Below the pieces are notes generated by a model. That model saw only the letters and a list, made by a program, of their open reading frames with translations. It made no database searches and was not told where the DNA came from. Made by a program: the position numbers and the translations under genes. From Deltaproteobacteria bacterium (GTDB lineage Bacteria; BMS3Abin14), in NCBI GenBank assembly GCA_013151915.1, contig JAADHJ010000041.1, positions 1-61,422 on the forward strand: a stretch of 61,422 nucleotides of DNA, in the 5' to 3' direction. This document shows, piece after piece, positions 28,134 to 52,252 of the stretch. Numbering within the stretch: the first letter of the stretch is position 1; every line of letters begins with the position of its first letter.

Positions 28134-28136
28134 GTG

Positions 28137-29506: not shown

Positions 29507-29510
29507 GGGA

Positions 29511-30707
<1,197 letters not shown>

Positions 30708-34488: not shown

Positions 34489-34845
34489 AACCATCCCTTT
34501 CCTAAAAAAACATAATTGCCTGGTTCGAAATCATGGCCGATGGGAGCCTTTCATATATGGAAGCGAGGTCCGTGTCAAGCTTGTTGCCTGCCGAAGGTTC
34601 AACGTTCCAGATTCCGGGTAACTTCGTCGATACCGCGATACTCCCATACCTGTCCCCTCAGGGTTGTCACTGCGAGGAGTATCGAGTTTAACGAGGGCAA
34701 CGTAGCAGTCCCGGGCTGCGGGACCGTCACCCGCCGCTGTCCTGACGACGGCCACCAACTTTTTTATCCGAACCATCTCTCCGGATGAACTTTCCATGGA
34801 CTTACCCTCGACCATCGATAAAAACCCCCGGCAGCTTATTTTTAC
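34489..34845. other. Spacer upstream of the KamA-family gene, no gene seen
   Basis: Mostly unique sequence with no convincing reading frame on either strand. Near 34669-34720 a degenerate family 2 segment reads GTCACTGCGAGGAGTATCGAG ... CGTAGCAGTCCCGGGC. A promoter for the KamA-family gene must lie here, but I could not place one with confidence. Confidence 0.5.
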
Positions 34846-34874
34846 TTGCAATTGTCCGGTATATTAAATACAAT
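34846..34874 (+). promoter_or_regulatory. Sigma-70-type promoter upstream of the DUF3467 gene
   Basis: TTGCAA, exactly 17 bases, TACAAT, in a locally AT-rich patch (AAATACAATTTTGTAATTAA). The predicted RNA start near 34881 gives a leader of about 230 bases before the DUF3467 gene. The leader contains a possible 53-codon frame and a hairpin. Confidence 0.65.
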
Positions 34875-35111: not shown

Positions 35112-35417
35112 ATGAACCAGGAGAAAAGACCGGAGAAAGGCAAAGGCCTCATCACCATCGAACCGGAGATGGAGAATGGCCGATATTCAAACGCAGCCAA
35201 TATCATCCACTCCTTCAATGAATTTATCCTGGATTTCATCATGCTCCTCCCCGGGGACAGGCAGAAGGTCGTGTCCCGCATAGTAACCTCACCGGCCCAT
35301 GCCAAGCAACTGGCGGAAGCCATGGAGCGTAATGTCCGGAAATACGAAACAACCTATGGGAAAATCAAGATACCCGACAGGGTCGAAGACGGTGAGTTCT
35401 CCGGGCCGGTAAATTAG
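35112..35417 (+). CDS. DUF3467 family protein
   Basis: 101-aa protein of the DUF3467 family. Conserved stretch: YSNAANIIHSFNEFILDFIMLLPG, then VVSRIVTSPAHAKQLAEAMERNVRKYE, which matches the usual pattern of one alpha/beta unit and a long helix. Function unknown; homologues are widespread in bacteria and archaea. GGAGG is six bases before the ATG. It converges with the sigma-54 activator gene and the stop codons overlap by three bases. Confidence 0.85.
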   Translation: MNQEKRPEKGKGLITIEPEMENGRYSNAANIIHSFNEFILDFIMLLPGDRQKVVSRIVTSPAHAKQLAEAMERNVRKYETTYGKIKIPDRVEDGEFSGPVN

Positions 35418-38200
35418 CCGGACTTCCCGGCGCCGATGGTTTTGTACATGAAGTTTTTGAACCTCATCAGAGCCTTTTGCTCACCATATGGGGTTTCCTC
35501 CAGCGCACGGAGGAGAAGTGCGGCCTCTTTCACCCCCCCTCCCTCGGCGAGGGCTATTTTGTAGATCCTGAGCACCATGGATCGGGTCATGTCATGGGCT
35601 ATGAAGGGTGCGTGGATCATATCCCAGAAATTCCCCTTGCCTCCCCTGATGAGGTCATAAAGGGCGGATTCATTGTCCCCATCCGGGCCCGGCCCTCTAA
35701 AGTGCCGGAGCGCTTTCCTGATCTCCTGCTCTCCGACTAAACCATCAACGCTCTCAAACAACCCCCCCTGGAGGATGCTCACCAGCTGCCTGATATTTCC
35801 AGGATATTCCAACCCGGTCAAAAAGAGGGATGCCTGGGGAGTCAGGTGAGGGGGGGAAGCATTCCTGGAGAATTTGGAGTGTAGCCGCCCGAGGAAATGT
35901 TTCGCCAGATCTGGAATATCCTCCCGACGTTCCCTCAAGGGCGGCACTTTGAGAACGATCTCCCTTAGACGGTGATAAAGGTCCTCTCGGAAGTTTCCCA
36001 GTTCTATCTCCTTCCCGAGGTCCCTGTTTGTAGCGGCAACGAATATCACCCTGCTCCTCTGGATGCGGCTGTCACCCAGCCGTGAAAACTCGCCGCTGTC
36101 TAAAAACCTCAGAAGCTGGACCTGGGTTTTCTGATCCGCGTCTCCTATCTCGTCCAGGAACACGATCCCGCCATCGGCCTCGTCAAAGATCCCCTTGCGG
36201 TCCGCGTAAGCCCCCGTATACGCGCCTTTTCTATGTCCGAAAAGTTCGGAGAAGGTCAGGTCGCCGCCATAGGCCGCTATGTTGGTCTTTCTCAGGGGCA
36301 GTTCCTCTCTTTTTCCCACGGCTTCCCGATAACGCTCATTGAGAAGAGAGTACAGGTTGTTGAAAACAAACTCCTTCCCCGAACCTGTCTCCCCCGTGAT
36401 CAGCAGGGTGGGAAGTCCAAACTCGATCCCTTCCCCGACATCACCATCCCAGTTCAGCAGCCAGCTTGTCAGTGGCGGCACCAGAAGCCCCAGACGGTCC
36501 ACCAGTTCCGTGGATGCTCTGCTCTTTCCTATGATATTACCGAGGAGATAGGAACTGACCGCAGGATCTCTGTACTCGACCTCCCTTTTCAACCTGGCCA
36601 CTTTCTGGGTCAACTCCGATATCTTTATCAGGTCGGCGATCCTGTTGGCGATCAGGCGGGAAATGAGAAGAATGATCCTCTGATGCTCCTGATTAAAGTA
36701 TCTCTCCTGATAGCTGTCCAGGTTGATAACCCCGATTACGCTTCCGCCAACAACGATAGGTACGGCCAGTTCGGATCGGACAAGACTGCTCAAATTCTTG
36801 AAAAACCCCCCTTTTCCGGCCTCTTCAACGGTATCGTTGCACAGGAAAGGTTTTCCGGTATGGGCTACGTAACCTGTAAGGGATCTCTCCTCGACCGGCA
36901 GTTCCTCACCCCCCACCTTTAAAAGGGGGATCTGCGCTTTTCTCCACCCCCTGGATTTCGCCCCGGACGGCCCGCTGTCCTCCACCCTGTCCACGACCAC
37001 CCAGCGCTGTTCATCCTCTCTGCTTAAAAGCCCGATGGAACCGGTATCCGCCCCCACCAACTCAACAACCATTGAAACAACCTTATTGAGAAAGACAGGG
37101 AGCTCTGTGTCCTCACCGAGGAGCTGCTCAATTTCGGACAGGACTTTTATCTCGAAGTGTTCTTCACCTGTATCGGCGATGCCCCTGCCAAGCGCCATGG
37201 CATGGTTTTTCAGGAGGCCCAGATCCCACTCGGTGTATTGATGGGGCCTTTTTGTGAAGTAGTTGACCACACAGACTACGGCATCATCATAATCCATCAC
37301 GGGAATCATGAGAAGGGTCCTCAATGAAAGATGATGAAAAACATCCCACCTCTCAAACTGTCTGGACAGGATGTCCTCGAAGAACAGGACATCAGGCGCC
37401 CCGGGACGCATGACAACGCTGTCCCCATCCTGCATTACCAGCAAAGACAACAGGCTTTTGCCTTCCAGAAGGCTGATACGTTCAAGGGTCTCGTAAACCG
37501 GGGGGTCTCCCATGTCCCTGGACGCGGACGCGAGGATTTCCATATGCCCGCCCCGGGCCGTTCTGAGAACTTCGGGCACGGTGGACTCGGCCGGTATCAG
37601 GACCGAGGTCATATCAAGCGCCATCTCCAGTTCAAAGGCTCCGCCGAGGAGAATACGGGCGATTTCTCTTTTTCTCGAGCGATCCAGGTGGCGGTTGAGC
37701 ATAATCTGTTGATGAAACCGATGGGCCTTCTCCAGAACCGGCATGATTCTTTTGAGGAGGCCCCTCACCGCGTCCCGGCTTTCGCCGGACAGTACGCTCC
37801 CCTTGCCATTTTGGGCATCAATGCTGAGGACACCTATGGAGCGGCCTCCCGCATTAAATGGAAAGATGACGGATCGTGTGAGGCTTCTTTCGGAGAACCA
37901 ACGGGTGTGAAGATCGTCACCCCCGGTTTTTTGCGTAGCGGCATCAATAAGCTGGGACGCGAGAAAGGCCCGGACCAGGTAGTTTTCTCTCCACTGGATC
38001 GGGATCCTTGCGCCCTTGCGCTCCAGCTCCCCTTCGGGGGTATAAAGGCAGATGAGGGCACCTTCCCTCATATCTTCCATATAAACCCGGATATTGCTGC
38101 ACCCGGTTATTTCGGTTACGCTTACGGAAAGGTAATGAAGGATATCAAGAAGGTTCTCCTTCCCAAGGGAAAGGATATGTTTAATATCTTTGCCGGTCAT
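35414..38200 (-). CDS. GAF-domain sigma-54-dependent transcriptional activator
   Basis: 928-aa enhancer-binding protein. About 560 N-terminal residues contain probably three GAF-type sensor domains (about 20-190, 200-340 and 360-520; FPFNAGGRSIGVLSIDAQNG; ELAVPIVVGGSVIGVINLDS). The AAA+ core has Walker A GETGSGKEF, Walker B GGIVFLDEIGD and the sigma-54 contact loop as GAYTGA instead of GAFTGA. The C-terminus lacks an obvious Fis-type helix-turn-helix, so DNA binding is uncertain. No receiver domain. Last gene of the ten-gene operon, 28 bases after the M23 gene. Confidence 0.88.
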   Translation of the reverse strand: MTGKDIKHILSLGKENLLDILHYLSVSVTEITGCSNIRVYMEDMREGALICLYTPEGELERKGARIPIQWRENYLVRAFLASQLIDAATQKTGGDDLHTRWFSERSLTRSVIFPFNAGGRSIGVLSIDAQNGKGSVLSGESRDAVRGLLKRIMPVLEKAHRFHQQIMLNRHLDRSRKREIARILLGGAFELEMALDMTSVLIPAESTVPEVLRTARGGHMEILASASRDMGDPPVYETLERISLLEGKSLLSLLVMQDGDSVVMRPGAPDVLFFEDILSRQFERWDVFHHLSLRTLLMIPVMDYDDAVVCVVNYFTKRPHQYTEWDLGLLKNHAMALGRGIADTGEEHFEIKVLSEIEQLLGEDTELPVFLNKVVSMVVELVGADTGSIGLLSREDEQRWVVVDRVEDSGPSGAKSRGWRKAQIPLLKVGGEELPVEERSLTGYVAHTGKPFLCNDTVEEAGKGGFFKNLSSLVRSELAVPIVVGGSVIGVINLDSYQERYFNQEHQRIILLISRLIANRIADLIKISELTQKVARLKREVEYRDPAVSSYLLGNIIGKSRASTELVDRLGLLVPPLTSWLLNWDGDVGEGIEFGLPTLLITGETGSGKEFVFNNLYSLLNERYREAVGKREELPLRKTNIAAYGGDLTFSELFGHRKGAYTGAYADRKGIFDEADGGIVFLDEIGDADQKTQVQLLRFLDSGEFSRLGDSRIQRSRVIFVAATNRDLGKEIELGNFREDLYHRLREIVLKVPPLRERREDIPDLAKHFLGRLHSKFSRNASPPHLTPQASLFLTGLEYPGNIRQLVSILQGGLFESVDGLVGEQEIRKALRHFRGPGPDGDNESALYDLIRGGKGNFWDMIHAPFIAHDMTRSMVLRIYKIALAEGGGVKEAALLLRALEETPYGEQKALMRFKNFMYKTIGAGKSG

Positions 38201-38228
38201 GTCGGATAACTCTGTTGCCTTTTACCCG

Positions 38229-39566
38229 TCACCTGGTTCCGGGCACTTGGTTCCGGGCACTGAGCTCCAGACTCCCGTCGGAAAGCAGGGCTGCCCTTTC
38301 GTCGACCATCTGCAGGTACGACTCCATTTCATCCCGTGGAACAGAGGATGCCCTCGGGACATTCACCTTCCTCGGATCCACATATCGGCCGTTGCGGTAC
38401 ATGGCGAAATGAAGGTGCGGCCCGGTGGTTCTTCCGGTTGCCCCAACAAAGCCGATGACCTGCCCCTGGCGGACGTGGACACCTCTCGAAATACCGGATG
38501 CGAAGGAGTTCAGATGCGCATATGCGCTGGAATAGGTCGAATTGTGGCGTATTTTCAACATTCTTCCATTGAATCGATCTGTTTTCCTGAGGATCACCGT
38601 GCCGTCGCCGATGGTGTGCACCGGTGTGCCGGTTCTGGCGGTGTAGTCAACCCCCAGATGGGGCGCCATTTTTTTAGTCACGGGGTTGAGCCTTCTGTGT
38701 GAAAACCCTGAGCTGATCCTTCTGAATTTCAAGGGCGCCTTGAGAAACTGCTTCCTCAGGCTGCCGCCCTCCTCATCGAAATATCCGCCACTGCCCTGCG
38801 CCGGCCTGTAAAGAAAAGCCTGGTAGAGGTGCCCGGCATTTTTAAAACGGGCTGCCAGGATGCGTCCATATTTGACAAATTTCCCGTCGCGGTAGAATTT
38901 CTCCAGCAGGATCGAAAAGACGTCCCCTTTCCTTAAGTCCCTGAAGAAATCGATCTGCCACGCAAATATTTCAGCAAGATCCATGGCCAGGATAGGGTTT
39001 TCTCCCAGGGACTCGATGGCGTTAAAAAGGGAATTTTCAATGACGCCCGATACCAAAACAGTTTTTACATTGTACTCGATGGGTTCTACGCTGACCTCCG
39101 GTTTTTTGCTGCCTAAGGAAACTTTGACAAGTCTGTTTTCATCGGGCTCGTACTGGTATTCCACCGCCGTATCATTCCTTTTGATGATCCTGTATGGTCG
39201 CCCTGCCACAAGCCTGGCAATATTCACCCCATCCACCCTTTTGGATGCCAGCGTCATGATGGAATCGTCGCTGACCCCAAGGCCTTTGAGTATGCCATAA
39301 AAGGTTTCCCCTTTTTTCACCTTGAATTCGCTGACCACAGGTCGAGTTATCGAAGGGGCTGCTTCCTTCGGGCCGGTCGGTTTTTCGGAGACAATGGGAG
39401 GCTTCGGCAACCTCTTTTCAGATCTCCCCGGGAAATAACTGAAACCGACCAGGCCGAGACTGATAAGGAGTAGAAAAACGAAACGGATTCTCACCGGTCG
39501 TCTTCGGATGTGGCTGTTTCGTTTCTGCCTCTGAGAGGCTGGATATTTTGGGCGGTTTTCTCTCAT
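38229..39566 (-). CDS. M23-family murein endopeptidase with LysM/OapA-like domain
   Basis: 445-aa envelope protease of the MepM/Csd3 type. A membrane anchor near residues 27-45 (IRFVFLLLISLGLVGFSYF) is followed by an OapA/LysM-like region (EFKVKKGETFYGILKGLGV), a Csd3-type second domain, and a C-terminal M23 domain with zinc ligands HLGVD and HLHF. It should cut cross-link peptides in murein. It overlaps the upstream 95-aa gene as ATGA. Confidence 0.92.
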   Translation of the reverse strand: MRENRPKYPASQRQKRNSHIRRRPVRIRFVFLLLISLGLVGFSYFPGRSEKRLPKPPIVSEKPTGPKEAAPSITRPVVSEFKVKKGETFYGILKGLGVSDDSIMTLASKRVDGVNIARLVAGRPYRIIKRNDTAVEYQYEPDENRLVKVSLGSKKPEVSVEPIEYNVKTVLVSGVIENSLFNAIESLGENPILAMDLAEIFAWQIDFFRDLRKGDVFSILLEKFYRDGKFVKYGRILAARFKNAGHLYQAFLYRPAQGSGGYFDEEGGSLRKQFLKAPLKFRRISSGFSHRRLNPVTKKMAPHLGVDYTARTGTPVHTIGDGTVILRKTDRFNGRMLKIRHNSTYSSAYAHLNSFASGISRGVHVRQGQVIGFVGATGRTTGPHLHFAMYRNGRYVDPRKVNVPRASSVPRDEMESYLQMVDERAALLSDGSLELSARNQVPGTR

Positions 39567-39850
39567 TCCCAGATTTTCTCCTCCACCATCAGGCGGAGTA
39601 TGGCATCCCGATCTCCATCTCCTGAATCCTGAAGGTACGCGTAAAAAATCTCTTCCAGGTCCATAAGCGCCATCTCGTGGACCTTGACAATCGGGAAGAA
39701 ATTCTCCGAAAGCTCGGGCAAGTCCAGTCGGACCATGTTTCTCGTGGCCAGGCCTCGAACCGCTCCGATGCTGTAGTCACGTCCATAGTAAGAGAGAACC
39801 TCCCTCGCGTTGCGGATAAGTTCTTCAAGGTTATTTTCCCTGTTTGTCAT
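39563..39850 (-). CDS. Small hypothetical protein, 95 aa
   Basis: Unrecognised. Begins MTNRENNLEELIRNAREVL, acidic and mainly helical, no membrane segment or metal motif. The ATG at 39850 overlaps the TPR gene end by 20 bases and its stop overlaps the M23 start. A longer upstream frame would overlap the TPR gene further and has no ribosome site. Its place in a dense operon suggests a soluble partner or adaptor of the envelope proteins. Confidence 0.7.
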   Translation of the reverse strand: MTNRENNLEELIRNAREVLSYYGRDYSIGAVRGLATRNMVRLDLPELSENFFPIVKVHEMALMDLEEIFYAYLQDSGDGDRDAILRLMVEEKIWE

Positions 39851-40877
39851 CGCTTTCTTCCTGAATTTTTTCAATGCTGTCCAGACGTTTTCGGACCTCA
39901 TCAAGATAACCCTTCAGTTTTCTGTTTTTCGGATCCCGCGCCAGGGCCAGATTCCAGGTCTCCCGGGCCTGCGTGAACCGTCCCTTGGCGTAGAATTTCA
40001 GACCCAGCAGCCTGGCGAACTCCACAACCTCGTCGAGCCTCCCTTTTTCCATGGGGGGCTCGCTCAGGGTCAGCCCCAGATAATAGTAAGCGTCGTTCAG
40101 GTTTCCCTGTTCCTCCACCTGGACGGCCATCTTGAACGCCTCCCTCGACCGGGCCTCTCTGAGGGTCTTAATTTCAATCAGCAGGCGTTGGGCAGGCATG
40201 GGGAGGACCGTGGCGACCTTGTATTTCTGCAAGGTTTTTTCGGCATCGCGGAGACGCCCCGCCTTAAAATATTTTCTGGCCAAAGCCAGATTCTTTTCCG
40301 CTTCCCGGCGGATCTCCTGATGCTTCTCGGCCTTCCTGAGGAATGCCATCTTCTCCGCAGTTCCCGGCCTTGCCGGCGTCAGAGATGAAATCGCTTCCAA
40401 CCGTTTTATGGCTCCCGCAAAATCTCCCCGTTCTTCCAGGTATTGCGCCTCCTCTTCAAGTCCCTCCACACGCGCCTCAATGGATCGCTCTACACCCGAC
40501 AGCAGCTTTTTGACCCAGTAGTAACGAGGGTAGATCTTCAATGCCTTCCTCATGCTGTCCCTGGCGCCGCCGAGATCTCCCTGGCTCTTCTCCTTGAATG
40601 CCTCTCTTACGAAAGAATCGGCTCTGTCGAGTGTATCACTGGAACGCTTCAGGGCGACCTGGACATCCTCGGAACACAGCTGAATCTCTTCCTGAAGTTT
40701 CCGGGCCGCTTCAACTGCCGCCTGGTGCTCGCCGGCCCGGGAAAATTTGCCTATTCTGCCGCACCTGGTCGTCCTGTCCGTCAATGCCTCCAGGTGAGCG
40801 CAACCTGCCATAACCAGTGCAAGGAGCACAATACACGATATATTACCTAGGTTGTTATTTCCTTGACCTCGGAACAT
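39831..40877 (-). CDS. TPR-repeat lipoprotein
   Basis: 348 aa. A lipoprotein signal with lipobox LVMAGC at about residues 21-26, then helical tetratricopeptide-like repeats (DAYYYLGLTLSEPPMEKGRLDEVVEFA; GRFTQARETWNLALARDPKNRKLKGYLDEV). Likely an outer- or inner-membrane tethered scaffold. The start overlaps the HD-GYP gene by 31 bases. Confidence 0.85.
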   Translation of the reverse strand: MFRGQGNNNLGNISCIVLLALVMAGCAHLEALTDRTTRCGRIGKFSRAGEHQAAVEAARKLQEEIQLCSEDVQVALKRSSDTLDRADSFVREAFKEKSQGDLGGARDSMRKALKIYPRYYWVKKLLSGVERSIEARVEGLEEEAQYLEERGDFAGAIKRLEAISSLTPARPGTAEKMAFLRKAEKHQEIRREAEKNLALARKYFKAGRLRDAEKTLQKYKVATVLPMPAQRLLIEIKTLREARSREAFKMAVQVEEQGNLNDAYYYLGLTLSEPPMEKGRLDEVVEFARLLGLKFYAKGRFTQARETWNLALARDPKNRKLKGYLDEVRKRLDSIEKIQEESDDKQGK

Positions 40878-42211
40878 ATTTCCCCGATCACACCTTCCCG
40901 CTCCAGACTAAGGAACACTTCCACGACCGCCGGGTCAAACTGCGCGCCGGAGTCCGATTTCACCCTGCTTACGGCTTCCTTATGGCCCAGTGCCGATCGG
41001 TAGGCTCGGTCCGAAGTCATGGCATCAAACGCATCGACCAGATTGATGATCCGGGATGGCAGGGGAATATCATCGCCTTTCAAACCATCCGGGTATCCGG
41101 TCCCGTCGAAATGTTCATGGTGGTATTTGACATAGAATCCCGCCCGTTCAAGAGAAGACATGGGACCTAATATGCGCGCACCGATTTCGGGATGGCGTTT
41201 CATGTTAAACAGTTCGCTATCCTTCAGGGGCCCGGTCTTGCCCAGGATATTCCCATCTATTCCTATCTTCCCGATATCGTGCAGGATGGCCGCCATCTCG
41301 AGGTTCTTCTGGTCATCGCCGCCCATTTTCATCCGTTCAGCAATGGCGTGGGAGATCCTGCCCACCCTCTCGCAGTGCCCCCTCGTATAAGCGTCCTTGG
41401 CTTCAACAGCGGCTGCCAGGGATCTGATCGTCTCCCGAAAATTCCTCTCTTTTTCGCTTCGAGTCTCCTGAATCTGTCTGACCATCTCGTTGAAATGCCT
41501 GGTAAGTCTTCCCACTTCGTCTCTTCCCTGCACATCGACGTGCACGAGGAAATTCCCAAATCCGACAGCACGTACCGCCTTGGCCAACATCTCAATCTTT
41601 TTGACCTGAACCCCGGCCAGAAAAAAAATCGCCACAATTCCCAGGGCGGTGACCGCGAACAGGGGAAGCAGAAGACCCTTGAGGGTCTCCTTCATTGCGC
41701 TGTAAATATGTTCTGCGCTCAATCCAACTACCGCCTTGCCTACTGTGACATCCTCGGCCACTATTGGCGCGACAAACTGAATAATACCGGGGGCGGCTGG
41801 GGGAATTTGGTCAAAGTCAATAATATTGCCCGTTTTTCCCTGGGTCGAATGGTAAACAATCTTTCCCTGATGGTTCACAAGATAGGCGTAACGAACGTCC
41901 TCGTCGAGAAGCGTGGACTCGGTCGCCGGGCCAAGACGAAGGTCATCCGATGCGAGGAGAGGGTCTGTAGCGTTTACCGCCAGGTTTTCCGCAAGCGATT
42001 TGGCCCTCTTCTGGCTCTCCATGGAAAGAAAGATCCACTCGTAACGCACAAGGGAAACGGCGATAACCCCGGAAAGGAGGAGCAGAAGAAGTGAGAAAGA
42101 GAGAGCTACTTTAAAACGCAGGGAAAACAGAAAGGGCACACCTTCCGTCGAAAAGAGGCCTTTTGCCCGGGCATTCACGCCTGGCACAATGTTCTTCTTA
42201 TCACGCTCCAA
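40847..42211 (-). CDS. Membrane HD-GYP cyclic di-GMP phosphodiesterase with HAMP domain
   Basis: 454 aa. Two membrane segments (about 32-52 and 180-200) enclose a periplasmic sensor of the dCACHE/PAS type; a HAMP domain follows (IEMLAKAVRAVGFGNFLVHV ... DEVGRLTRHFNEMV), then the HD-GYP domain with HDIGKIGI, HPEIGARIL and the GYP loop HHEHFDGTGYPDGL. The signature residues for metal and c-di-GMP hydrolysis look intact. Start is TTG at 42211, ten bases after GGAGG. Confidence 0.93.
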   Translation of the reverse strand: MERDKKNIVPGVNARAKGLFSTEGVPFLFSLRFKVALSFSLLLLLLSGVIAVSLVRYEWIFLSMESQKRAKSLAENLAVNATDPLLASDDLRLGPATESTLLDEDVRYAYLVNHQGKIVYHSTQGKTGNIIDFDQIPPAAPGIIQFVAPIVAEDVTVGKAVVGLSAEHIYSAMKETLKGLLLPLFAVTALGIVAIFFLAGVQVKKIEMLAKAVRAVGFGNFLVHVDVQGRDEVGRLTRHFNEMVRQIQETRSEKERNFRETIRSLAAAVEAKDAYTRGHCERVGRISHAIAERMKMGGDDQKNLEMAAILHDIGKIGIDGNILGKTGPLKDSELFNMKRHPEIGARILGPMSSLERAGFYVKYHHEHFDGTGYPDGLKGDDIPLPSRIINLVDAFDAMTSDRAYRSALGHKEAVSRVKSDSGAQFDPAVVEVFLSLEREGVIGEICSEVKEITT

Positions 42212-42216
42212 AGGTT

Positions 42217-42777
42217 TTATTCCTCCCTGTTTACTGCGAGCGTTGTGTTCCCGATGGTAAACGTATCACCAAAATTCAGCCGGGCTGTGAGGACCTTCTT
42301 TCCACCCACGAAAGTTCCGTTTGTGCTCTCCATGTCAATGAGAAACAGATATTCATCGAAGATCCTGACCTGACAGTGTTTCCGGGAAACCTCAGAATCG
42401 TTGATTACAATATCAGCCTCGCTCCTCCCCAACGAGACCGCAGGTTTGTCAACGAGATAGACGTCACCGCCGGGCAAGGTCGTCAGAAAATATTTTTTCC
42501 CCTCCTGGAGATGGGGTTTTTCCCGGGAAGCTTCACGCAAAAGATCCGTCACCTCGCTCCTGCTCTGATCAACCTCCTGAAAATCGTAAGACATGGTCTG
42601 GCTGTAATCCACCCCGGGGGGGTCCATAAGGTTTACGGAAGAACTGCCGCCTCCTCTCCTGGGTGGTATCAGAATATCCTGACCGCAGTTGGGGCAGCTC
42701 AACTTCGTTCCCCTGGCCGGGATCTTTCTATCGGCCACCTGACAGGGAGTCTGGCAGTTGCTGCAGGTTATTTTCAT
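42217..42777 (-). CDS. Zinc-ribbon FHA-domain protein
   Basis: 186 aa. The N-terminus is a MJ0042-type zinc ribbon (CSNCQTPC ... LSCPNCGQDI); the C-terminus is a FHA domain (SLGRSEADIVINDSEVSRKH, STNGTFVGGKKV) that reads phospho-threonine peptides. Ser and Gly in GRS and the SRKH and STNGT motifs are all present, so it should bind. No Ser/Thr kinase is in the window. Starts directly after the CHB/propeller gene stop (TAG then ATG). Confidence 0.9.
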   Translation of the reverse strand: MKITCSNCQTPCQVADRKIPARGTKLSCPNCGQDILIPPRRGGGSSSVNLMDPPGVDYSQTMSYDFQEVDQSRSEVTDLLREASREKPHLQEGKKYFLTTLPGGDVYLVDKPAVSLGRSEADIVINDSEVSRKHCQVRIFDEYLFLIDMESTNGTFVGGKKVLTARLNFGDTFTIGNTTLAVNREE

Positions 42778-45570
42778 CTATCGTCGCCTGTATACCGGCA
42801 TCTTAACCACGGAAAAACGCTTTCCATCGTATTTAAAAACTCCCTGGTCCGTATGAAACCACTTGTTATCCGACAGGTCCACAGCAATCACGGGAACAGA
42901 GCGTCCAAAAAATCCCTGGTCCGGACCGAAAACCACCCATTTTTTCCCATCAAACCGGGCGATTCCGCTTTCCCTGGTTCCGATCCAGACATTCCAGCGT
43001 CCGTCAACGGCAATGGCGGTCACCCTGTCGGAAGGAAGACCGTCAAGATGGGTAAAGACCCTGATCACCTTGTCGCGAAAACTGGCTACCCCCTTGTCCG
43101 TAGCGATCCAGAAAACTCCGTTGGCATCGATGGCCAGCGCGTTCACATTGTCGTCCGGAAGACCATCCCTGGATGTATAGACCTTAAAGGAATTGCCGTC
43201 AAAACGGGCCAACCCCTTGTCCGTGCCGAACCAGAGATGCTTTCTCTGATCCACGACGATACAGTTGATAAAGTTGCTCGGCAAACCATCGCCGTAATCA
43301 AAGGTTACCCAGTTCTTCGCGCCATCGAACTGGGAAACACCTTTATCGGTTCCGATCCATTTAAAGCCCAGATGGTCAACCGCGATGGCCCGGACAGAAT
43401 TACTGATGAGGCCGTTGTCCCTGGTGAAGTTCTTCCTCCTCTTGTTAATGATGTTTACTCTGAAAAGCCCCTCATCGCCTCCGACCCACAGGAAGTTTCC
43501 ATCCAATACGCTGGGAAAGATAAACACTCCATTGGTGTTGTCTCTCCATAGACCGCTTGCCACTGTGTAACTGGCGGTTTTAACTTTTTCGTGGTTCCCC
43601 GCCCTGTCCACGGCGAAAAATCTGATTGTGGCTTTGTCACGGAGAATCAGCGGAACGGTATACTGAGGGGACCCGTCCGTGGGTTCCGTACCGTCCAGGG
43701 TATAACGAATAATCGCGTTTTCCTCGCTCTTCAGCTCCAGGGTTATGGGGGGATTATATTGACCCGGCGCTGGATAAGAGATGGTGTTGGGCGGCTCGGA
43801 ATCGATGGTATATTCGGCCATCTGGATCCCTTCCCTGTTCCCGGCCGCATCCTCGGAATAAAAGAATATTTTTCCGCTTTGGCTCAGTACGAAGGGTCCG
43901 CCATAAATGGAGAACTTCTTATTTACTCCCGTTCTGATGAATATTCTGCCGCCTTTCTCGGATTTCAGGGATACACTCACAGGCCTGTTGTATATTCCGG
44001 CCGGCGGATCAACGGTGGTTGACGGAGGTGTCTGATCAAATGTGTATTTTTCGACTTTAACCGCCTCCCTGTTGCCGGATTCGTCAACTGCGAAAAACTT
44101 CAGAACAGTATCCCGGGCTACGGGAACAGGGTTTTCATATTCCGGCGAGGCGTCGCTCGGGGTGCTTCCGTCAGTGGTGTATCGAATGACAGCATTATCC
44201 TCGGTCTTCAACACGACGAGGATAGGCCCTGAAAACATCCCTTCGCCGGGGTCAGCGGAGGTAACCGGCGGTGTCCGGTCCAGAATATAGCGCTGGCTGA
44301 CAACATCACTACGGTTGCCGACTTTATCCACAGCGAAGTAGGATAAAACAGCATTCCTGGTCACATTGATGGGGCCACGGTATCTCGATGACTGACGTGT
44401 TACCGAACTCCCGTCAAGTGTGTAGAAAATATTCGCCGGTTCGGACGTTTCCAGTTTAACCCGGATTCTTCCCGAATAATTGCCTCCCTTCGGGCGCGGC
44501 ACCACAGTGGGCGCAGTAGTATCGATGATAAATTCGGCTGTGGCTGTTTCTCCCCTGTTTCCAGCTTCGTCCACCGCAAAATATTTAAGGACCATCGAAC
44601 GGTTCAGTTTTATGGCACCATGGAAAATTGGTGACGAGGGACCTGGTTCACGTTCACCGATCTCGTACCGGATCGTTCCCTTCTCATTGGATGACAGGGT
44701 CACATTAACCGCGGTTCCATAGGTCCCCGGATGAGGCTCCACTTTAACCTTGGGGGGAACGGTATCGATCACATATCGTTCCTCACGGACATTTTCCTTG
44801 TTCCCGGCGCCATCAACAGCAAAAAAACGCAGAACCCCGCTGCGTTGAAAGGTGATGGGTTTCAAATAGGCACGGGACCGGGAGGTAGGCCGGCTTCCAT
44901 CGAGCGTGTAATGGATCCTGGCCCCCTCTTCACCAACGAGGGAAACGGTGACGGGACTGTTGAACAGTCCGCCGGACGGATCGGCGATGGTCACAGGCCT
45001 GGTAGTGTCGATAAGGATATGGTAAATCTCCGTCCTGACCGCCTCCTTGTTTCCCGCCTTATCCATGGAGAAGAATTTAAGCGATGTATCCTTTTTTATT
45101 CTAAGGGGCTTACCGTAGACAGGTGAGCCTTCTCCGGGGACACTTCCATCAAGGGTAAATCGGGTGACGGCATCCTCTTCGGTGGTCAGGCGGATGGATA
45201 TCGGATGGTTGTACTTACCCCCCTTCGGACGGGCAGCCGTAACGGGAGGCTCCGTATCCAGGCGCACATGAAAAATCGAGGTCTGTATCTCCGACCGGTT
45301 GCCTGCCCGGTCGGCGGCAAAATAACGAACCTGAGCGTCATTCCGCAAGGTGACGGGAACGATGTAGGGCATAGGTTCCTGATCGCCGATGGAATAGAAA
45401 ACGACGGCGCCCTGCTCGGTGGTAAAAACCAGGGAAACCGCCTTATTGTAGGTTCCGGGGGGAGGTTGGATGGAAACGGCCGGAGGGGTTCTATCAAAAG
45501 GAAAGAACCGGGCAACGACAGCCACAACTGCCAGAAGAATGGCCAGGAATAGAAAGACCTTGCCTCTCAT
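42778..45570 (-). CDS. Exported protein with eight chitobiase-like repeats and a C-terminal beta-propeller (paralogue A)
   Basis: 930 aa. One N-terminal membrane or signal segment (FLFLAILLAVVAVVARFF), then eight tandem chitobiase C-terminal-like (CHB_HEX_C) beta-sandwich repeats of about 80 residues with the frame IRYTLDGSxP ... LKFFAVDxAGNxE, and a two-component-regulator-type beta-propeller (about 690-930) of six to seven blades (KWIGTDKGVSQFDG; LWFGTDKGLARFDG; GLPSDRVTAIAVD). The usual histidine kinase or Y_Y_Y domain of such sensors is absent. It may bind glycans or wall fragments. Preceded by a 29-codon frame and followed without gap by the FHA gene. Confidence 0.85.
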   Translation of the reverse strand: MRGKVFLFLAILLAVVAVVARFFPFDRTPPAVSIQPPPGTYNKAVSLVFTTEQGAVVFYSIGDQEPMPYIVPVTLRNDAQVRYFAADRAGNRSEIQTSIFHVRLDTEPPVTAARPKGGKYNHPISIRLTTEEDAVTRFTLDGSVPGEGSPVYGKPLRIKKDTSLKFFSMDKAGNKEAVRTEIYHILIDTTRPVTIADPSGGLFNSPVTVSLVGEEGARIHYTLDGSRPTSRSRAYLKPITFQRSGVLRFFAVDGAGNKENVREERYVIDTVPPKVKVEPHPGTYGTAVNVTLSSNEKGTIRYEIGEREPGPSSPIFHGAIKLNRSMVLKYFAVDEAGNRGETATAEFIIDTTAPTVVPRPKGGNYSGRIRVKLETSEPANIFYTLDGSSVTRQSSRYRGPINVTRNAVLSYFAVDKVGNRSDVVSQRYILDRTPPVTSADPGEGMFSGPILVVLKTEDNAVIRYTTDGSTPSDASPEYENPVPVARDTVLKFFAVDESGNREAVKVEKYTFDQTPPSTTVDPPAGIYNRPVSVSLKSEKGGRIFIRTGVNKKFSIYGGPFVLSQSGKIFFYSEDAAGNREGIQMAEYTIDSEPPNTISYPAPGQYNPPITLELKSEENAIIRYTLDGTEPTDGSPQYTVPLILRDKATIRFFAVDRAGNHEKVKTASYTVASGLWRDNTNGVFIFPSVLDGNFLWVGGDEGLFRVNIINKRRKNFTRDNGLISNSVRAIAVDHLGFKWIGTDKGVSQFDGAKNWVTFDYGDGLPSNFINCIVVDQRKHLWFGTDKGLARFDGNSFKVYTSRDGLPDDNVNALAIDANGVFWIATDKGVASFRDKVIRVFTHLDGLPSDRVTAIAVDGRWNVWIGTRESGIARFDGKKWVVFGPDQGFFGRSVPVIAVDLSDNKWFHTDQGVFKYDGKRFSVVKMPVYRRR

Positions 45571-45659
45571 TATCCGGTCCCCCCGGTTCGGGCACTACCA
45601 TCGAAAAACTCATCGTCAAGGGTGCGTGGTTGGGCCTCGCCAACACCAGCCATCAGCAT
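45570..45659 (-). CDS. Possible 29-aa coupled peptide
   Basis: ATG at 45659 with GAGG eight bases upstream; product begins MLMAGVGEAQPRTLDDEFFDG and ends at a TAA that overlaps the start of paralogue A (TAATG). It follows the 613-aa gene by ten bases. The tight start-stop coupling supports translation; no function is known. Could be a purely regulatory re-initiation element. Confidence 0.4.
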   Translation of the reverse strand: MLMAGVGEAQPRTLDDEFFDGSARTGGTG

Positions 45660-45669
45660 AACCTTTTCC

Positions 45670-47511
45670 TCATGGGTTGCTCCTCCTGATCCGATCCATG
45701 GCTCCATCCTCCAACCTGTATTGAACCTGGAACTCCCTCTCGAGTTCCTCGACCCTGATGAGATCCAGGCCGCTGGAACGGATAAACTCCTCCCGGACCT
45801 TGGGGTTCATCCCCTTGACCGCCCTGGGAAGAACCGTGTTGACGTAAACACGTTCCATTTTCAGATCATCAAGGGCTTTTCGCAGGAAGGCATCCGGTAT
45901 GCCGGACCTGACGAAGCCCCTGGATGTCAACATCTTCTTTACATCTCCGACGAAGGCATTCTCCTCGTCCGCACCCCGGAGTGAACGCCCGAATTTCTTC
46001 AACCACCGGTCCATGGCAGCTTTGACGATATGGTATTCCTTCTCCTCCCTTGTGAGGGTCTCAAGGGAGATAACCAGGTCATGGAGCGAAAGATCACCTG
46101 TGGCTATTTTTCCGAGCCCCGAGGAAAGGGCCTCGATCTTTTTTCTGCCGGTGTTGGGGAGAAAGGGGTTTTTCAGAATAGGGTTCAGGAACAGCTCGCG
46201 AAAGAGGCCATCCTGTATTTCCTCAAAAATCCTGCGATTGGCCAGGAGGCTTCGGGCCCGTTCCAGTGAAAGCTTCTCCTCCTCGTGGAAAGCCATCCGG
46301 TTGACCATATTATAGACCGTATCGAACCTGTCGAAGTAGGTGATAATATTTCCGAACTCCTCGAGGATGGTCGGGTTCTCCATCCTGGTACTGAGATCGT
46401 CGCACTCCTTGCCAACCTCGATTAATATTCTATCGAACGCGGAATCGCGATTCTCCAGAGCGGAAAGCTTTGTCTTCAGCAGGCGGATAAGGTCAATCCT
46501 CTCCAGATGAACACCTGTCCGCCGGGTCCGGAGCAATATGGTTTCCAGTACGCCTCTGGCCTCAATGAGATATTCCGGCGCCTCGGTCGTCATGATTTTT
46601 TTGTCACCAAGGAGTTTTTCATCCAGTACGTTCAGGAAGCTATCCGGGATCCCCTTGCGGAGTGCCAAAGTCCTCAATCGAGATATCTTGGCGCTCTGGT
46701 CGAAGCGGATCTCCTCTCCTCTCCAGATTTCAGCCAGGACGGATCTGTACTCATCTATGACCTGTCTGTTCTCGTTGTCCCGAAACATGATATCGATCTT
46801 TATGCGCTCCTGAGAATAGGGATCGATCCTCAGCCGGTTCGCCAGATCCTGCAGGATGGTCTGCTCGTCTTCCCCGATAGCGTGCGAACGGGAATAGAGT
46901 TCCTCGTACTTGACGTAGAAATCGCGATGAGACTGGTTCACAAGTTTCAGCAAAAAAAAGGCCGTTCCCAGTTCAGACCACTTATCGTTCAGTTCCTCCG
47001 CTATTTTCGAGTCATCGCCGTCCAACGCGAGGGGAAACCTCTTGAGGGATCTACCAAGAACCTTGAGGATCTCCTCCTGTTGTTTCCTGAGAACTGTGCG
47101 GTGGAAAAACTGTATGAAGAAGTAATAGTTGAAGACGGTGTGCCCGCGGAGGAAGATATCCTTGAACGATTCGTATCCCGAGGTATCCTTTGTGAACCGA
47201 ATACCGGGAACCCCGTCGTGCCGGGCCCCGAAAAGAACAAGACGGTTGACTACATCCGCTTTGACAAGATCTTCAACCGGTTCATCGACACCGAACATAT
47301 AGGGACAGAAACTGCCCCCATTGCCGGTGTGGGAAATCCCGTCCGGGCTGATAATAAACTCATTGCCGCCGCTGAAAAAGCGGTGCCTGGCGACGACGCC
47401 TTCATCAAGCACCTCGTGAAAATAATGGCTCCCCAGTCCAAATCCGCTTAGCGTCGCATAGAATTCTTTGTCCGGTCCAGCCACCCCATGGACCCTGAAA
47501 TCCTTTATCAT
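45670..47511 (-). CDS. Uncharacterised 613-aa protein (TIGR04442-like)
   Basis: Soluble, helix-rich protein. N-terminal roughly 115 residues look like a globular domain (HGVAGPDKEFYATLSGFG, GNEFIISPDGISHTGNGGSF); the remainder is charged and helical with repeated short motifs such as RKGIPDSFLNVLDEKLLG and RSGIPDAFLRKALDDLKM. I recall a family annotated TIGR04442 in Geobacter-like organisms with this opening, function unknown; that link needs a search. It lies between the two CHB/propeller paralogues, which suggests a cytoplasmic partner. Confidence 0.7.
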   Translation of the reverse strand: MIKDFRVHGVAGPDKEFYATLSGFGLGSHYFHEVLDEGVVARHRFFSGGNEFIISPDGISHTGNGGSFCPYMFGVDEPVEDLVKADVVNRLVLFGARHDGVPGIRFTKDTSGYESFKDIFLRGHTVFNYYFFIQFFHRTVLRKQQEEILKVLGRSLKRFPLALDGDDSKIAEELNDKWSELGTAFFLLKLVNQSHRDFYVKYEELYSRSHAIGEDEQTILQDLANRLRIDPYSQERIKIDIMFRDNENRQVIDEYRSVLAEIWRGEEIRFDQSAKISRLRTLALRKGIPDSFLNVLDEKLLGDKKIMTTEAPEYLIEARGVLETILLRTRRTGVHLERIDLIRLLKTKLSALENRDSAFDRILIEVGKECDDLSTRMENPTILEEFGNIITYFDRFDTVYNMVNRMAFHEEEKLSLERARSLLANRRIFEEIQDGLFRELFLNPILKNPFLPNTGRKKIEALSSGLGKIATGDLSLHDLVISLETLTREEKEYHIVKAAMDRWLKKFGRSLRGADEENAFVGDVKKMLTSRGFVRSGIPDAFLRKALDDLKMERVYVNTVLPRAVKGMNPKVREEFIRSSGLDLIRVEELEREFQVQYRLEDGAMDRIRRSNP

Positions 47512-47605
47512 CGGGAAAATGTTATATTATTTTGCCGGGGATGTCTTGTGTTTGTTATGTAGCTCCATCGGGGACGCTCGCGCCTTCACGCCCTGACAGG
47601 CTCTC

Positions 47606-49702
47606 CTAAGGTAATTCCTCCTTGACCCAATGGTCCCCCGTAAATCGGGCCACTCCGCCCCGGGTCGCAACCCAGATATCTCCGTCGACATCCGGGGTGA
47701 TGAGGGTAATGGCATCGCTCGGCAACCCGTCCTTCTGCCTGTAGCTTCTCCAACCGGTGCCATCAAACACTGAAATACCATCAGGTGTGCCGCACCATAC
47801 GTTCCAATGGGAATCCAGCGCCACGGTACGAACCTCGTTTCTTATCAGACCGCTTTCCCTGGTGAAGTTATGCCACTCCGACCCCGTGAATTTTGAAAGG
47901 CCTTTCTTTGTGCCGAACCACTTGTTTCCGAGAGCATCCACGGCGATGGCCAGGACAGTATTGTCCACAAGCCCGTCCTTCTTTTCGAGGATCTCCAGGA
48001 CGACATTCCTCTTGATGTGGGCCACCCCATTTTTTGTTCCGGCCCACACGGAGTTGTCGATGTCCACACCCAGGCTGATGACCTCTTCGGACGGCAGCCC
48101 CTGTTTTTTTCCGATATGGAAAAATCCGCCCCTCTTCTTCATGACGGTGATGCCCGCCTCGGTGGCCACCCAGAGGTTGTCTTCCTCATCCAGGACCATA
48201 TCGTTGATTGTATTTCCGAGGAAACCCTCCCGTTGGCCGACAAACTGCTGCGAACCCGATCCGACCGTGTAGACAACCAGACCCGCTTCGGAACCCATCC
48301 AGAATGTATGACCGTCGGTTACGCTGGGCAGAAGGAACACCCCCCGTGCGTACTTCCGCCACACTCCATTGATAAATCGGTATCGATGGGTTTGGACAGC
48401 TTCTTCATTGCCGAGATTGTCCACGGCGAAGAGCTTCAAAACGGTGGGGACCTTGAATGTCAGGGTGTTGGAATAGACGGGGCTGTTCATGTCCGGGGTA
48501 CTCCCATCCAAAGTGTAATGGATGGCTGCTCCTTCCTCGGTTTCCAGCGTAACGGATACGGGCGGCCTGTATTCGCCCCCCGGGGGCGTTACTTCGGTTT
48601 CCGGGGGGGTTGAGTCGAAGGTGTATTCCGCCGTTTTAACCTCCTCCCTGTTGCCCATCCGGTCCACTGAAAAGTACTTTATGATGGTGTGGTAATTCAG
48701 AACGAGGGGAGCATTATAGACATGGGAATCAACGCCGGGGTCGGATCCATCCAATGTGAAGTGAACGACTGCATCTTCCTCGGAGGTCTCAATCCTGACA
48801 GTCAGCGGTGGAACATATAGGCCCGGTGCGGGGATCGTCCTGGATTCCGCTGGAACGGTATCAACCACATACTTTGCAACATGGATCTCGCTGCGGTTGT
48901 GTGCCCGGTCAACAGCGAAAAACCTCAGAACGGTATTACCCTGAATAGGGAAAGGATTTTCATATTTAATTGATTTTTCAGTGGGCTTTGATCCGTCAAG
49001 TGTGTAGTAGAATTCGCATTCCTCATTGGCCTCAAGGTGAACCAGGTCGCCGATTTTATACTCCCCGGGGGAGGGCGCAACGGTGGGCTCCGGCGGTGTC
49101 GTGTCCACAATCTTTTCGGTGAGGCTGAAACTATAACGCTCGGATCTTACAGGCTCTCTTGTCCCATCGCTTCCCATGGAGAAAAATTTTAAAACGGTAT
49201 CGTTGGTCAGAAGGATAGGCGATGTAAACACAGGGCTGCTCGTATCCGGGTCCGAACCGTCTATGGTGTAATAGAGGGCAGCCCCGGCCCTGCCTTCCAG
49301 TTTGACCCAGACGCCTCTGGAAAAATGCCCCCCCGGGGGATTTGCGACAGTCAGCAGACGGTCCTTCCGGGAGTCGGGCAAATCTATTCTATAAAAGGCC
49401 TCTTTGACGGCGCCCATGATCCCCGACACGTCCACGGTAAAATAGCGGATAACCGTATCTTCGCCGATGGTGACAGGGGACTTGAAGGCGGGAGACCTTA
49501 CAGTGGGTTCGGAACCATCCAGTGTGAAATGGACCTCGGCCCCGGCGGGGACCGCAAATCTGAGAACGACAGGTTCGTGGTATGTTCCCGGCGGCGGGGT
49601 CAGGACGACACCCATTGATCGGGCATCCGGGATGCGGAAAATCCCTGTAAAACCAACAAGAATCAGGAAAACCAGAATGACAGGGCCACGACGTCGTTTC
49701 AA
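47606..49702 (-). CDS. Exported protein with five chitobiase-like repeats and a C-terminal beta-propeller (paralogue B)
   Basis: 698 aa from TTG at 49702, chosen because AAGGAG lies nine bases upstream; it then begins with a basic stretch and a hydrophobic segment (GPVILVFLILVGFTGIF), a signal or anchor. Five CHB_HEX_C-like repeats (HFTLDGSEPTVRSPAF, YYTLDGSKPTEKSIKY, HYTLDGSTPDMNSPVY) precede a beta-propeller with blades such as KWFGTKKGLSKFTG and IWVATRGGVARFTGDHW. Shorter paralogue of the 930-aa gene. First gene of the operon, downstream of a good promoter. Confidence 0.85.
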   Translation of the reverse strand: MKRRRGPVILVFLILVGFTGIFRIPDARSMGVVLTPPPGTYHEPVVLRFAVPAGAEVHFTLDGSEPTVRSPAFKSPVTIGEDTVIRYFTVDVSGIMGAVKEAFYRIDLPDSRKDRLLTVANPPGGHFSRGVWVKLEGRAGAALYYTIDGSDPDTSSPVFTSPILLTNDTVLKFFSMGSDGTREPVRSERYSFSLTEKIVDTTPPEPTVAPSPGEYKIGDLVHLEANEECEFYYTLDGSKPTEKSIKYENPFPIQGNTVLRFFAVDRAHNRSEIHVAKYVVDTVPAESRTIPAPGLYVPPLTVRIETSEEDAVVHFTLDGSDPGVDSHVYNAPLVLNYHTIIKYFSVDRMGNREEVKTAEYTFDSTPPETEVTPPGGEYRPPVSVTLETEEGAAIHYTLDGSTPDMNSPVYSNTLTFKVPTVLKLFAVDNLGNEEAVQTHRYRFINGVWRKYARGVFLLPSVTDGHTFWMGSEAGLVVYTVGSGSQQFVGQREGFLGNTINDMVLDEEDNLWVATEAGITVMKKRGGFFHIGKKQGLPSEEVISLGVDIDNSVWAGTKNGVAHIKRNVVLEILEKKDGLVDNTVLAIAVDALGNKWFGTKKGLSKFTGSEWHNFTRESGLIRNEVRTVALDSHWNVWCGTPDGISVFDGTGWRSYRQKDGLPSDAITLITPDVDGDIWVATRGGVARFTGDHWVKEELP

Positions 49703-49746
49703 AATCGAAAACTCCTTCGGCAATATAATTTATGGACAATATGGTG

Positions 49747-49775
49747 ATGATATTGAATATGCCCGGAAATGGCAA
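49747..49775 (-). promoter_or_regulatory. Promoter of the CHB/propeller operon
   Basis: Minus strand: TTGCCA, 17-base spacer, TATCAT, about 45 bases upstream of the first start. It is arranged back to back with the promoter for the dehydrogenase-like gene at 49795-49822, so the two operons may share regulation. Confidence 0.55.
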
Positions 49776-49829: not shown

Positions 49830-50945
49830 ATGACCATACAGACCATGAGAGCCCTGACAGTGACCCCCTCCACGGGTGAATTTGCCGTCAGGGATGTGCC
49901 GATGCCGATTTTGGAAGCCGACGAGGTTCTCGTCCGCATTACACGGGTCGCCTTTACCCGCAGGGACCGCCTCATCATGGAGAACCCGAAAGCCGTCTCC
50001 CCTGAAGGGTCAAAATACCTGATACCCGGCCATATCGCCGCAGGCAGGGTGGCGGAAACCGGATCCCTTGTAAAGAACCTTGCCGCCGGGGACCTCGTTG
50101 TCCCGACCATTCGCCGCGACTGCGACAAATGCATCGACGCACGCAGCGACATCTGTCCCCATCCGGACAAATACATGGATTCGGGGCTTATGAGAGCCCA
50201 CGGTTTTGCGAGAGAGTTTATTGTCCTTAAAAGCCGTTATCTCATTAATCTGCCCGACGACCTGGAAAACCTGGCCCTGCTGCTTACGCCCTTAAGCGTG
50301 GCCGAAAAAGCCCACCGCGAGGCGGTTCAGATCCTTGAGCGGTACAACTTTTACTGTTTCCACAATGACGATCCTTTCCCACCCCGCACCCTGGTGACCG
50401 GCATGGGGCTGGTGGGAATAATGGCCGCTTTTCTCCTGTCCCTTTACAACTACCGGATAACGGTTTTCGGCCGCCGGGAGTCGGACGACTCCAGGTCCGC
50501 CGTATTAGACCCCCTGGACGTGGAGTTCATTAATACAGCCCGTGTCCCATTGGAAAGGTTGGAAAAGACCAGATACCATTTTAACCATATTTTCGAGACC
50601 ACCGGAGACCCCTCCTACATCATGCGCACCATCCCGTTCATGGGCTTTAACGCCATTATGGTCCTAATGGGTATACCGGAAAATATCGCGGGAGAGACTC
50701 ACCTGGATATAGAGGGTACCGCCCTTTTCAGCAGGATGATAGAAGGCAACCAGATACTGATGGGCAGTCTTAAAGCGGGCAGAGACGCATTCAACTCTTC
50801 CGTAAAACATCTGATCGAGCTAAGCGATCTTTATGGAAAACAGCTGGCAGGGCTTATTACACACACGTTTCCCCTGGAGGAATACCGGAAGGTCCTCGCC
50901 CTGGATTCGAGGGAAGCCATCCTTCCCGTTCTCGATCTGACCTGA
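49830..50945 (+). CDS. Medium-chain dehydrogenase-like protein, zinc ligands degenerate
   Basis: 371 aa, similar in layout to glucose 1-dehydrogenases of the MDR family: GroES-like N-terminal part, GHIAAGRVAETGSLVKNLAAGD, a four-cysteine-like lobe reduced to CDKC ... C, HGFAREF, and a NAD(P)-binding part (TLVTGMGLVGIMAAFLLSL). The catalytic-zinc Cys of GDH (in CGTDKE) aligns with Thr in AFTRRDRL, and the Glu of GHE is Ile. Activity may be zinc-independent or lost. Its TATAAT box abuts the ATG. Confidence 0.75.
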   Translation: MTIQTMRALTVTPSTGEFAVRDVPMPILEADEVLVRITRVAFTRRDRLIMENPKAVSPEGSKYLIPGHIAAGRVAETGSLVKNLAAGDLVVPTIRRDCDKCIDARSDICPHPDKYMDSGLMRAHGFAREFIVLKSRYLINLPDDLENLALLLTPLSVAEKAHREAVQILERYNFYCFHNDDPFPPRTLVTGMGLVGIMAAFLLSLYNYRITVFGRRESDDSRSAVLDPLDVEFINTARVPLERLEKTRYHFNHIFETTGDPSYIMRTIPFMGFNAIMVLMGIPENIAGETHLDIEGTALFSRMIEGNQILMGSLKAGRDAFNSSVKHLIELSDLYGKQLAGLITHTFPLEEYRKVLALDSREAILPVLDLT

Positions 50946-52251: not shown

Positions 52252-52252
52252 T

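Follow-up and report, generated by a model that had tools for sequence, protein, structure and literature searches.

A conserved envelope gene block containing a TIGR04442 protein and the scar of a lost ParM-family actin gene in a deltaproteobacterium

Four groups of described bacterial systems and proteins each share features with the locus considered here. In the GPMC system of the Geobacterales (NCBIfam models NF038230 and NF038231), a TIGR04442 gene directly adjoins a gene for a GAF/sigma-54 regulator. In filamentous cyanobacteria, the FcmB/FcmC system includes a chromosomal ParM-derived actin, FcmB, which controls rod shape in Nostoc and whose loss abolishes rods (PMC12645912). The DD-endopeptidases MepM, ShyA, ShyC and Csd3 and the Glt system of Myxococcus offer further points of comparison. 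The locus is a block of nine protein genes in a 61,422-nucleotide stretch of DNA, hereafter the window, from a Deltaproteobacteria bacterium (BMS3Abin14; GenBank assembly GCA_013151915.1, contig JAADHJ010000041.1, positions 1 to 61,422 of the forward strand), which forms contig 41 in the 2.27 Mb genome labelled G000. In nearly all relatives the block also encodes an actin-like protein (ALP) of the ParM family, the gene for which survives in G000 as a deletion scar. The block is interpreted here, tentatively and with a confidence somewhat short of even, as a periplasm-to-cytoplasm module that would remodel peptidoglycan locally and in a controlled way and act in cell shape. The original prediction, made from the DNA alone, described an operon of ten genes at this place and on this strand; the nine protein genes are confirmed, and the tenth, a frame of 29 codons, proved to be the scar. 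The ALP gene of the relatives, the assignment of one product (p613) to TIGR04442 and the relationship between the regulator and its GPMC counterpart are additions to that prediction.

The nine genes are tightly packed on the minus strand between 35414 and 49723 and run, from the promoter side, in the order propB, p613, propA, FHA, HD-GYP, TPR lipoprotein, p95, M23 and GAF/sigma-54 (Table 1). Counted in the opposite direction, from the GAF/sigma-54 gene to propB, the distances between neighbors are 28, -4, -74, -31, 5, 0, 99 and 94 bases, such that none exceeds 99 bases and the genes touch or overlap at four junctions. Conservation of the block was followed in 12 genomes of the phylum, all from one family, in which the relatives include metagenome-assembled genomes (e.g., SZUA-204, PFL40 and ZodW_Metabat.265). 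The conserved order is p613, ALP, propA, FHA, HD-GYP, TPR lipoprotein, p95, M23 and GAF/sigma-54 regulator, and it is found in G002, G004 and G005 and, as far as the contigs extend, in G007, G008, G010 and G011. Identities to the block orthologues are mostly 47–69%, falling to ~36% for the TPR lipoprotein, and the congener G001 (74–89% identity) carries the full block minus the regulator. The p613 gene was detected in 11 of the 12 genomes, and propA accompanies the block in all 12, bar contig ends. In G003 and G009 the block starts with ALP and ends with the regulator, and p613 is displaced or absent; this may be an assembly effect, as both are gap-filled single scaffolds. The original prediction turned on the gene set recurring in other genomes, and its order is indeed conserved in other genera, indicating that the cluster is more than a chance association. 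The flanks are less stable. The propB gene is unlinked to the block in G002 and G009, and in G004, G005 and G011 it lies ~4–4.6 kb from p613 with polyamine genes between them. Consequently, the core of the block begins with p613 and ends with M23, and in most cases the regulator is joined to it; propB, a paralogue of propA that is loosely linked to the block, and the GAF/sigma-54 regulator are non-obligatory parts. The p95 family, for which there is no Pfam or NCBIfam entry, is essentially restricted to this lineage: its profile (A3) is present in 11 of the 12 genomes and finds one weak match, in a single genome, outside the family.

Table 1. Features of the block and its vicinity in the window (positions are those of the window)
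Feature	Position	Strand	Description	Basis
Promoter-like site before propB	49747..49775	-	sigma-70 type, TTGCCA-17-TATCAT	10/12
propB	47606..49723	-	705 aa; hydrophobic N-terminus, 5 CHB_HEX_C_1 Ig-like repeats, C-terminal Reg_prop propeller	Pfam
p613	45670..47511	-	613 aa; TIGR04442 family, predicted cytoplasmic	NCBIfam
ALP scar	45570..45659	-	29-codon scar of deleted actin-like (ALP/ParM-family) gene	DNA alignment with G001
propA	42778..45570	-	930 aa; N-terminal membrane anchor, 7 CHB_HEX_C_1 repeats, C-terminal Reg_prop propeller	Pfam
FHA	42217..42777	-	186 aa; MJ0042-type zinc ribbon + FHA, cytoplasmic	Pfam
HD-GYP	40847..42211	-	454 aa; membrane HD-GYP protein	Pfam, motifs
TPR lipoprotein	39831..40877	-	348 aa; LALVMAGC	Pfam TPR; N-terminal sequence
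p95	39563..39904	-	113-codon frame, conserved core ~95 aa, cytoplasmic	no Pfam/NCBIfam family
M23	38229..39566	-	445 aa; membrane-anchored M23 peptidase, Csd3_N2 domain, MepM/ShyA-like	Pfam
GAF/sigma-54	35414..38200	-	928 aa; AAA+ activator, relative of GPMC system regulator	Pfam, NCBIfam
mreB-mreC-mreD-PBP2-RodA operon	25171..30680	-		
RumA-like fragment	34723..34824	-	degraded RNA methyltransferase, in frame 34531..34851	
ADH-like gene	49830..50945		divergent	
Second sigma-54 activator	50962..52278	-	N-terminal FHA domain	

The gene that relatives carry between p613 and propA is 341–345 codons long, and nine of the 12 genomes have it. Its product matches ALP_N (9e-37) and MreB-like_C in Pfam, matches ParM structures in PDB by sequence (6ixw, 3e-29; CorM 9rmi, 8e-10), and retains the nucleotide motifs in all orthologues; identity to plasmid ParM/StbA proteins is ~25–31%. 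The spacing around this gene is tight. Six of the eight relatives measured have at most 20 bases between p613 and this gene, and the remaining two have 23 and 109; at its other end, the gene overlaps propA or is separated from it by up to 84 bases. In G000, the frame at this position encodes MLMAGV-GEAQPRTLDDEFFDG-SARTGGTG, and alignment of its DNA with the intact G001 gene identifies three retained pieces and deletions of 63 and 876 bp, with an 11-base direct repeat, TTTTTC(G/A)ATGG, at the end of the larger one. Both deletions are multiples of three and therefore in-frame, which may reflect either selection for translational coupling or chance. No ALP orthologue was found elsewhere in G000. 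The gene is also missing at the same junction in G010 (genus g6), and no orthologue was found in G006 or G010; together with the G000 scar, this suggests at least two losses.

Outside the family, ALP orthologues are rare: at E < 1e-20, only G149 and G286 have one among 354 genomes, and a third was found in G443, of the same phylum. These proteins share 45–48% identity with the ALP, and their genes neighbor those for a TPR lipoprotein, a LysM protein and a small membrane protein, the C-terminus of which looks SPOR-like by eye with no Pfam match. G149 and G286 also encode TIGR04442, on other contigs, and as they belong to one family they count as one co-occurrence rather than two. The likeness of the ALP to the ParM structure and to plasmid ParM/StbA proteins could mean that it is a DNA-segregating ParM of a plasmid-type partition system, with the other genes as bystanders. 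However, the genes adjoining ALP are p613 and propA rather than a ParR gene, and the mostly short gap to p613 and the abutting propA leave scarcely any space, or none, for a parC array. In addition, the ALP gene is chromosomal and co-conserved with envelope genes, and the outside orthologues also lie among envelope genes. Given the lack of an adjoining ParR gene and of parC space, partition is rejected as a very improbable explanation. A precedent is FcmB, which is likewise a chromosomal ParM-derived actin beside a retained MreB and is linked to morphology. In contrast to FcmB, the ALP has no ParR-like FcmC partner, its gene lies inside a multi-gene envelope block, and it scores 57 bits against a cut-off of 300 on the FcmB model. 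A literature search returned nothing on the chromosomal ParM of Desulfitobacterium.

The upstream neighbor of the actin gene, p613, is a member of TIGR04442 (527.4 bits against a cut-off of 150, covering positions 1–608 of the 608 in the model), an uncharacterised family with members in several phyla. No hydrophobic segment was found in p613, and neither p613 nor p95 matched any Pfam family. TIGR04442 is encoded in 48 of 58 genomes of the Geobacterales order (named from the matching NCBIfam models) and, within the phylum of G134, in 73 of 296; a few genomes from other families also carry it. In the Geobacterales loci L097, L098 and L100, it is flanked on one side by the GPMC MBL gene and on the other by the gene of a GAF/sigma-54 regulator with the same architecture as that of the block. 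The block regulator reaches 912 bits on NF038230, below the cut-off of 1200, while the L057 regulator passes at 1561 bits; the two are full-length relatives with 39.8% identity. TIGR04442 and the GAF/sigma-54 regulator are thus a core common to the block and the Geobacterales, and it might be argued from this shared pair that the block is a new instance of the GPMC system. The GPMC MBL protein (NF038231) is absent at cut-off from all 12 family genomes, however, and the two genes that are neighbors in Geobacterales are separated here by an envelope and actin cassette, with eight other genes intervening. Because NF038231 is absent and the regulator falls below the NF038230 cut-off, membership is rejected, with hardly any probability left to it.

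Within the phylum of G134, the surroundings of TIGR04442 point to the envelope, the wall and division. At 9 of 21 loci, from six families (L138, L147–L150, L153–L155 and L056), the gene is divergent from that of an SLT lytic transglycosylase, which is followed by ZapB-like and ZapA genes; some of the other loci adjoin LptF/LptG genes. The arrangement with SLT and Zap genes provides a lead on the function of the family, for which the literature search found no described role. An AlphaFold model of p613 built from 26 sequences (mean pLDDT 85, low pTM of 0.52) predicts a mixed, beta-rich N-terminal domain (~1–210) followed by a long all-helical part. When the one of two models with the deeper alignment was used in a fold search, the top PDB match was the PP2C domain of SpoIIE with a non-significant E of 0.095, followed by several PP2C chains, and global TM-scores were low. 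None of the 26 TIGR04442 members has a Pfam phosphatase match, and a sequence-profile search of PDB with p613 gave no match. A phosphatase fold is not claimed for p613, and the similarity is kept as a lead only.

Among the remaining products, the M23 protein matches M23 (9e-29) and Csd3_N2 (3e-13) in Pfam, has a transmembrane segment at residues 27–45 and contains both metal motifs, HxxxD and HxH. These features are shared with the DD-endopeptidases MepM, ShyA, ShyC and Csd3. The closest NCBIfam models are ShyC, ShyA and MepM, but the block protein is below all of these equivalog cut-offs and, in contrast to the named enzymes, is linked at the genetic level to genes for HD-GYP, FHA, propeller and TIGR04442 proteins. 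The HD-GYP protein matches HD_5 (1e-34) and HAMP (8e-10) and has a weak sCache_3_2 match (0.007) between two transmembrane segments (28–46 and 180–198). Its motifs (HDIGKIG at 311 and HHEHFDGTGYP at 364) are intact, and hydrolysis of cyclic di-GMP (c-di-GMP) is predicted from them. The organism itself seems to make heavy use of c-di-GMP signalling, judging from the ~12 HD-GYP domains in G000. The FHA protein (Pfam FHA, 7e-17, plus Zn_ribbon_4) preserves its CxxC pairs and GR, SRxH and NGT motifs in every orthologue checked and is predicted to read phospho-threonine; in G002 the FHA and HD-GYP pair is duplicated in tandem (L027, 4699–7482). The identities that the original prediction gave to the HD-GYP, FHA and M23 proteins accordingly agree with their intact catalytic or binding motifs. 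Its proposal of glycan sensing is not supported. Both propeller proteins have a hydrophobic segment near the N-terminus (residues 13–31 in propB and 5–23 in propA). Of their Pfam domains, Reg_prop denotes a propeller and CHB_HEX_C_1 an accessory domain of the Ig-like kind, and neither match shows sugar binding; glycan sensing is rejected as its sole basis was the family name of the Ig-like repeat.

The combination of an actin, FHA and zinc-ribbon domains, TPR and beta-rich periplasmic parts recalls Myxococcus Glt, and a surface-motility or gliding machine was weighed on account of this layout and of domain-level matches of the FHA protein to GltG (2e-14, 53 of 650 bits) and GltJ (9e-4, 18.5 of 450 bits). 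Both matches are below cut-off and reflect single shared domains. Among the genes of the block and the other window genes examined, none was recognised as a motor gene of the AglRQS/TolQR type, a search that did not extend to the whole genome. A gliding machine is therefore judged improbable.

The regulator of the block combines GAF and Sigma54_activat domains with a Walker A motif (GETGSGKE). Its GAYTGA loop is a conservative variant of GAFTGA; the loop reads GSYTGA in G004 and GAFTGA in both Geobacterales relatives checked. Pfam detected no C-terminal DNA-binding domain. Scanning the window for sigma-54 promoters gave 22 matches (two or fewer mismatches) against 21 expected, none above chance, and for this reason none is claimed. 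The original prediction placed a promoter ahead of propB. The pattern is present, but the scan yielded 13 such sites against 10 +/- 3 expected, which makes the site weak taken alone, and it is kept in the congener G001 and not in G008 or G005. These results bear on the possibility that the block is a c-di-GMP-linked regulon for envelope stress or surface sensing, in which the M23 and periplasmic proteins would be mere outputs rather than parts of a physical machine. The presence of a dedicated GAF/sigma-54 regulator, an HD-GYP protein with HAMP and extracytoplasmic segments and an FHA reader would fit such a regulon, as would the persistence of the block without ALP. Conversely, G001 lacks the regulator yet keeps the rest, and no sigma-54 promoter stands out. 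The regulon is regarded as possible but rather unlikely.

The link to wall remodelling made in the original prediction is strengthened by an mre operon near the block as well as by the TIGR04442 and actin contexts elsewhere. In G000, G001, G003, G004 and G005, no more than ~8 kb separates the block from the mreBCD-PBP2-RodA genes (mreD being assigned by position and by the congener rather than by Pfam); the stretches retrieved for G002 and G009 did not contain the operon. Other neighbors are more variable. A degraded RumA-like RNA methyltransferase fragment, whose first 29 residues match at 53%, follows the block in G000, and an intact copy is near the block in G001, G002, G003, G004, G005, G007 and G009. 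On the other side, past the divergent ADH-like gene, is the second sigma-54 activator, which also occurs in G001. A polyamine cluster follows propB in several relatives (L028, L029, L031, L107 and L108), with none in the window; it contains an XRE-cupin regulator together with SpeD-like, arginine decarboxylase-like, spermidine synthase-like and agmatinase-like genes, all but the regulator named by eye.

The peptidoglycan-remodelling module is favoured on several grounds: the gene order conserved across genera, the match of ALP to ParM and the tight p613-ALP-propA spacing, the intact M23/Csd3_N2 motifs with an mre operon nearby in five genomes, and the TIGR04442-SLT-Zap loci, the envelope context of the outside ALP orthologues and the FcmB precedent. 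It is best read as built on the core of TIGR04442 plus regulator, ancestrally with its own actin, and a c-di-GMP input is plausible. In the periplasm, propA (and propB where present) would form long Ig-like rods tipped by a propeller, the TPR lipoprotein would sit on a membrane, and the anchored M23 protein with its Csd3-type domain would be the effector that cuts cross-links. The HD-GYP protein would use its extracytoplasmic segment to read a cue in the periplasm, and would lower c-di-GMP. On the cytoplasmic side, the FHA/zinc-ribbon protein, p95 and the TIGR04442 protein may function as adaptors and scaffold, and in the ancestral state a ParM-family actin filament would position the complex, beside the MreB rod machinery encoded nearby, much as FcmB filaments do in Nostoc. 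Where present, the GAF/sigma-54 protein would tune expression. The gene content, the motifs, the synteny, the actin scar and the conservation of the neighbourhood are directly observed. The assembly of these products into a single complex, the role in wall remodelling, the direction of signalling, the positioning by actin and all of the activities are what we infer from these comparisons.

Several observations weigh against this module. The ALP gene is lost in G000 and missing in genus g6 while the other block genes persist, and most Geobacterales carry TIGR04442 with no ALP neighbor in the loci seen, which argues that the core role of TIGR04442 is independent of actin. The linkage of propB is variable and the regulator is lost in G001. 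Furthermore, the 2.27 Mb genome encodes ~12 HD-GYP proteins, and the activity of the one in the block is presumed from its motifs. Nevertheless, a wall-remodelling module with a lost actin fits the block better than a glycan sensor does: of the original interpretation, the conserved gene order, the motifs and the link to the wall are supported, and the sensing of glycans is set aside. The statement that no named system has this set of genes also stands after the literature search, which found nothing on TIGR04442 or the GPMC system.

A bolder form of the proposal is possible but doubtful, namely that the block encodes a new envelope-spanning machine, organised by actin, that remodels peptidoglycan and has TIGR04442 as an unrecognised, widespread cytoplasmic coordinator of wall cleavage or division, with TIGR04442 coupled here to a ParM-derived actin and still functional after the loss of that actin. 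If the wall-remodelling reading is right, it would provide a first functional handle on TIGR04442 and would add a further lineage, besides the cyanobacterial case, in which a ParM-type actin has been recruited to the cell envelope. Natural knock-outs would be at hand in this genome and in genus g6, where the actin has been lost and the other genes have been kept.

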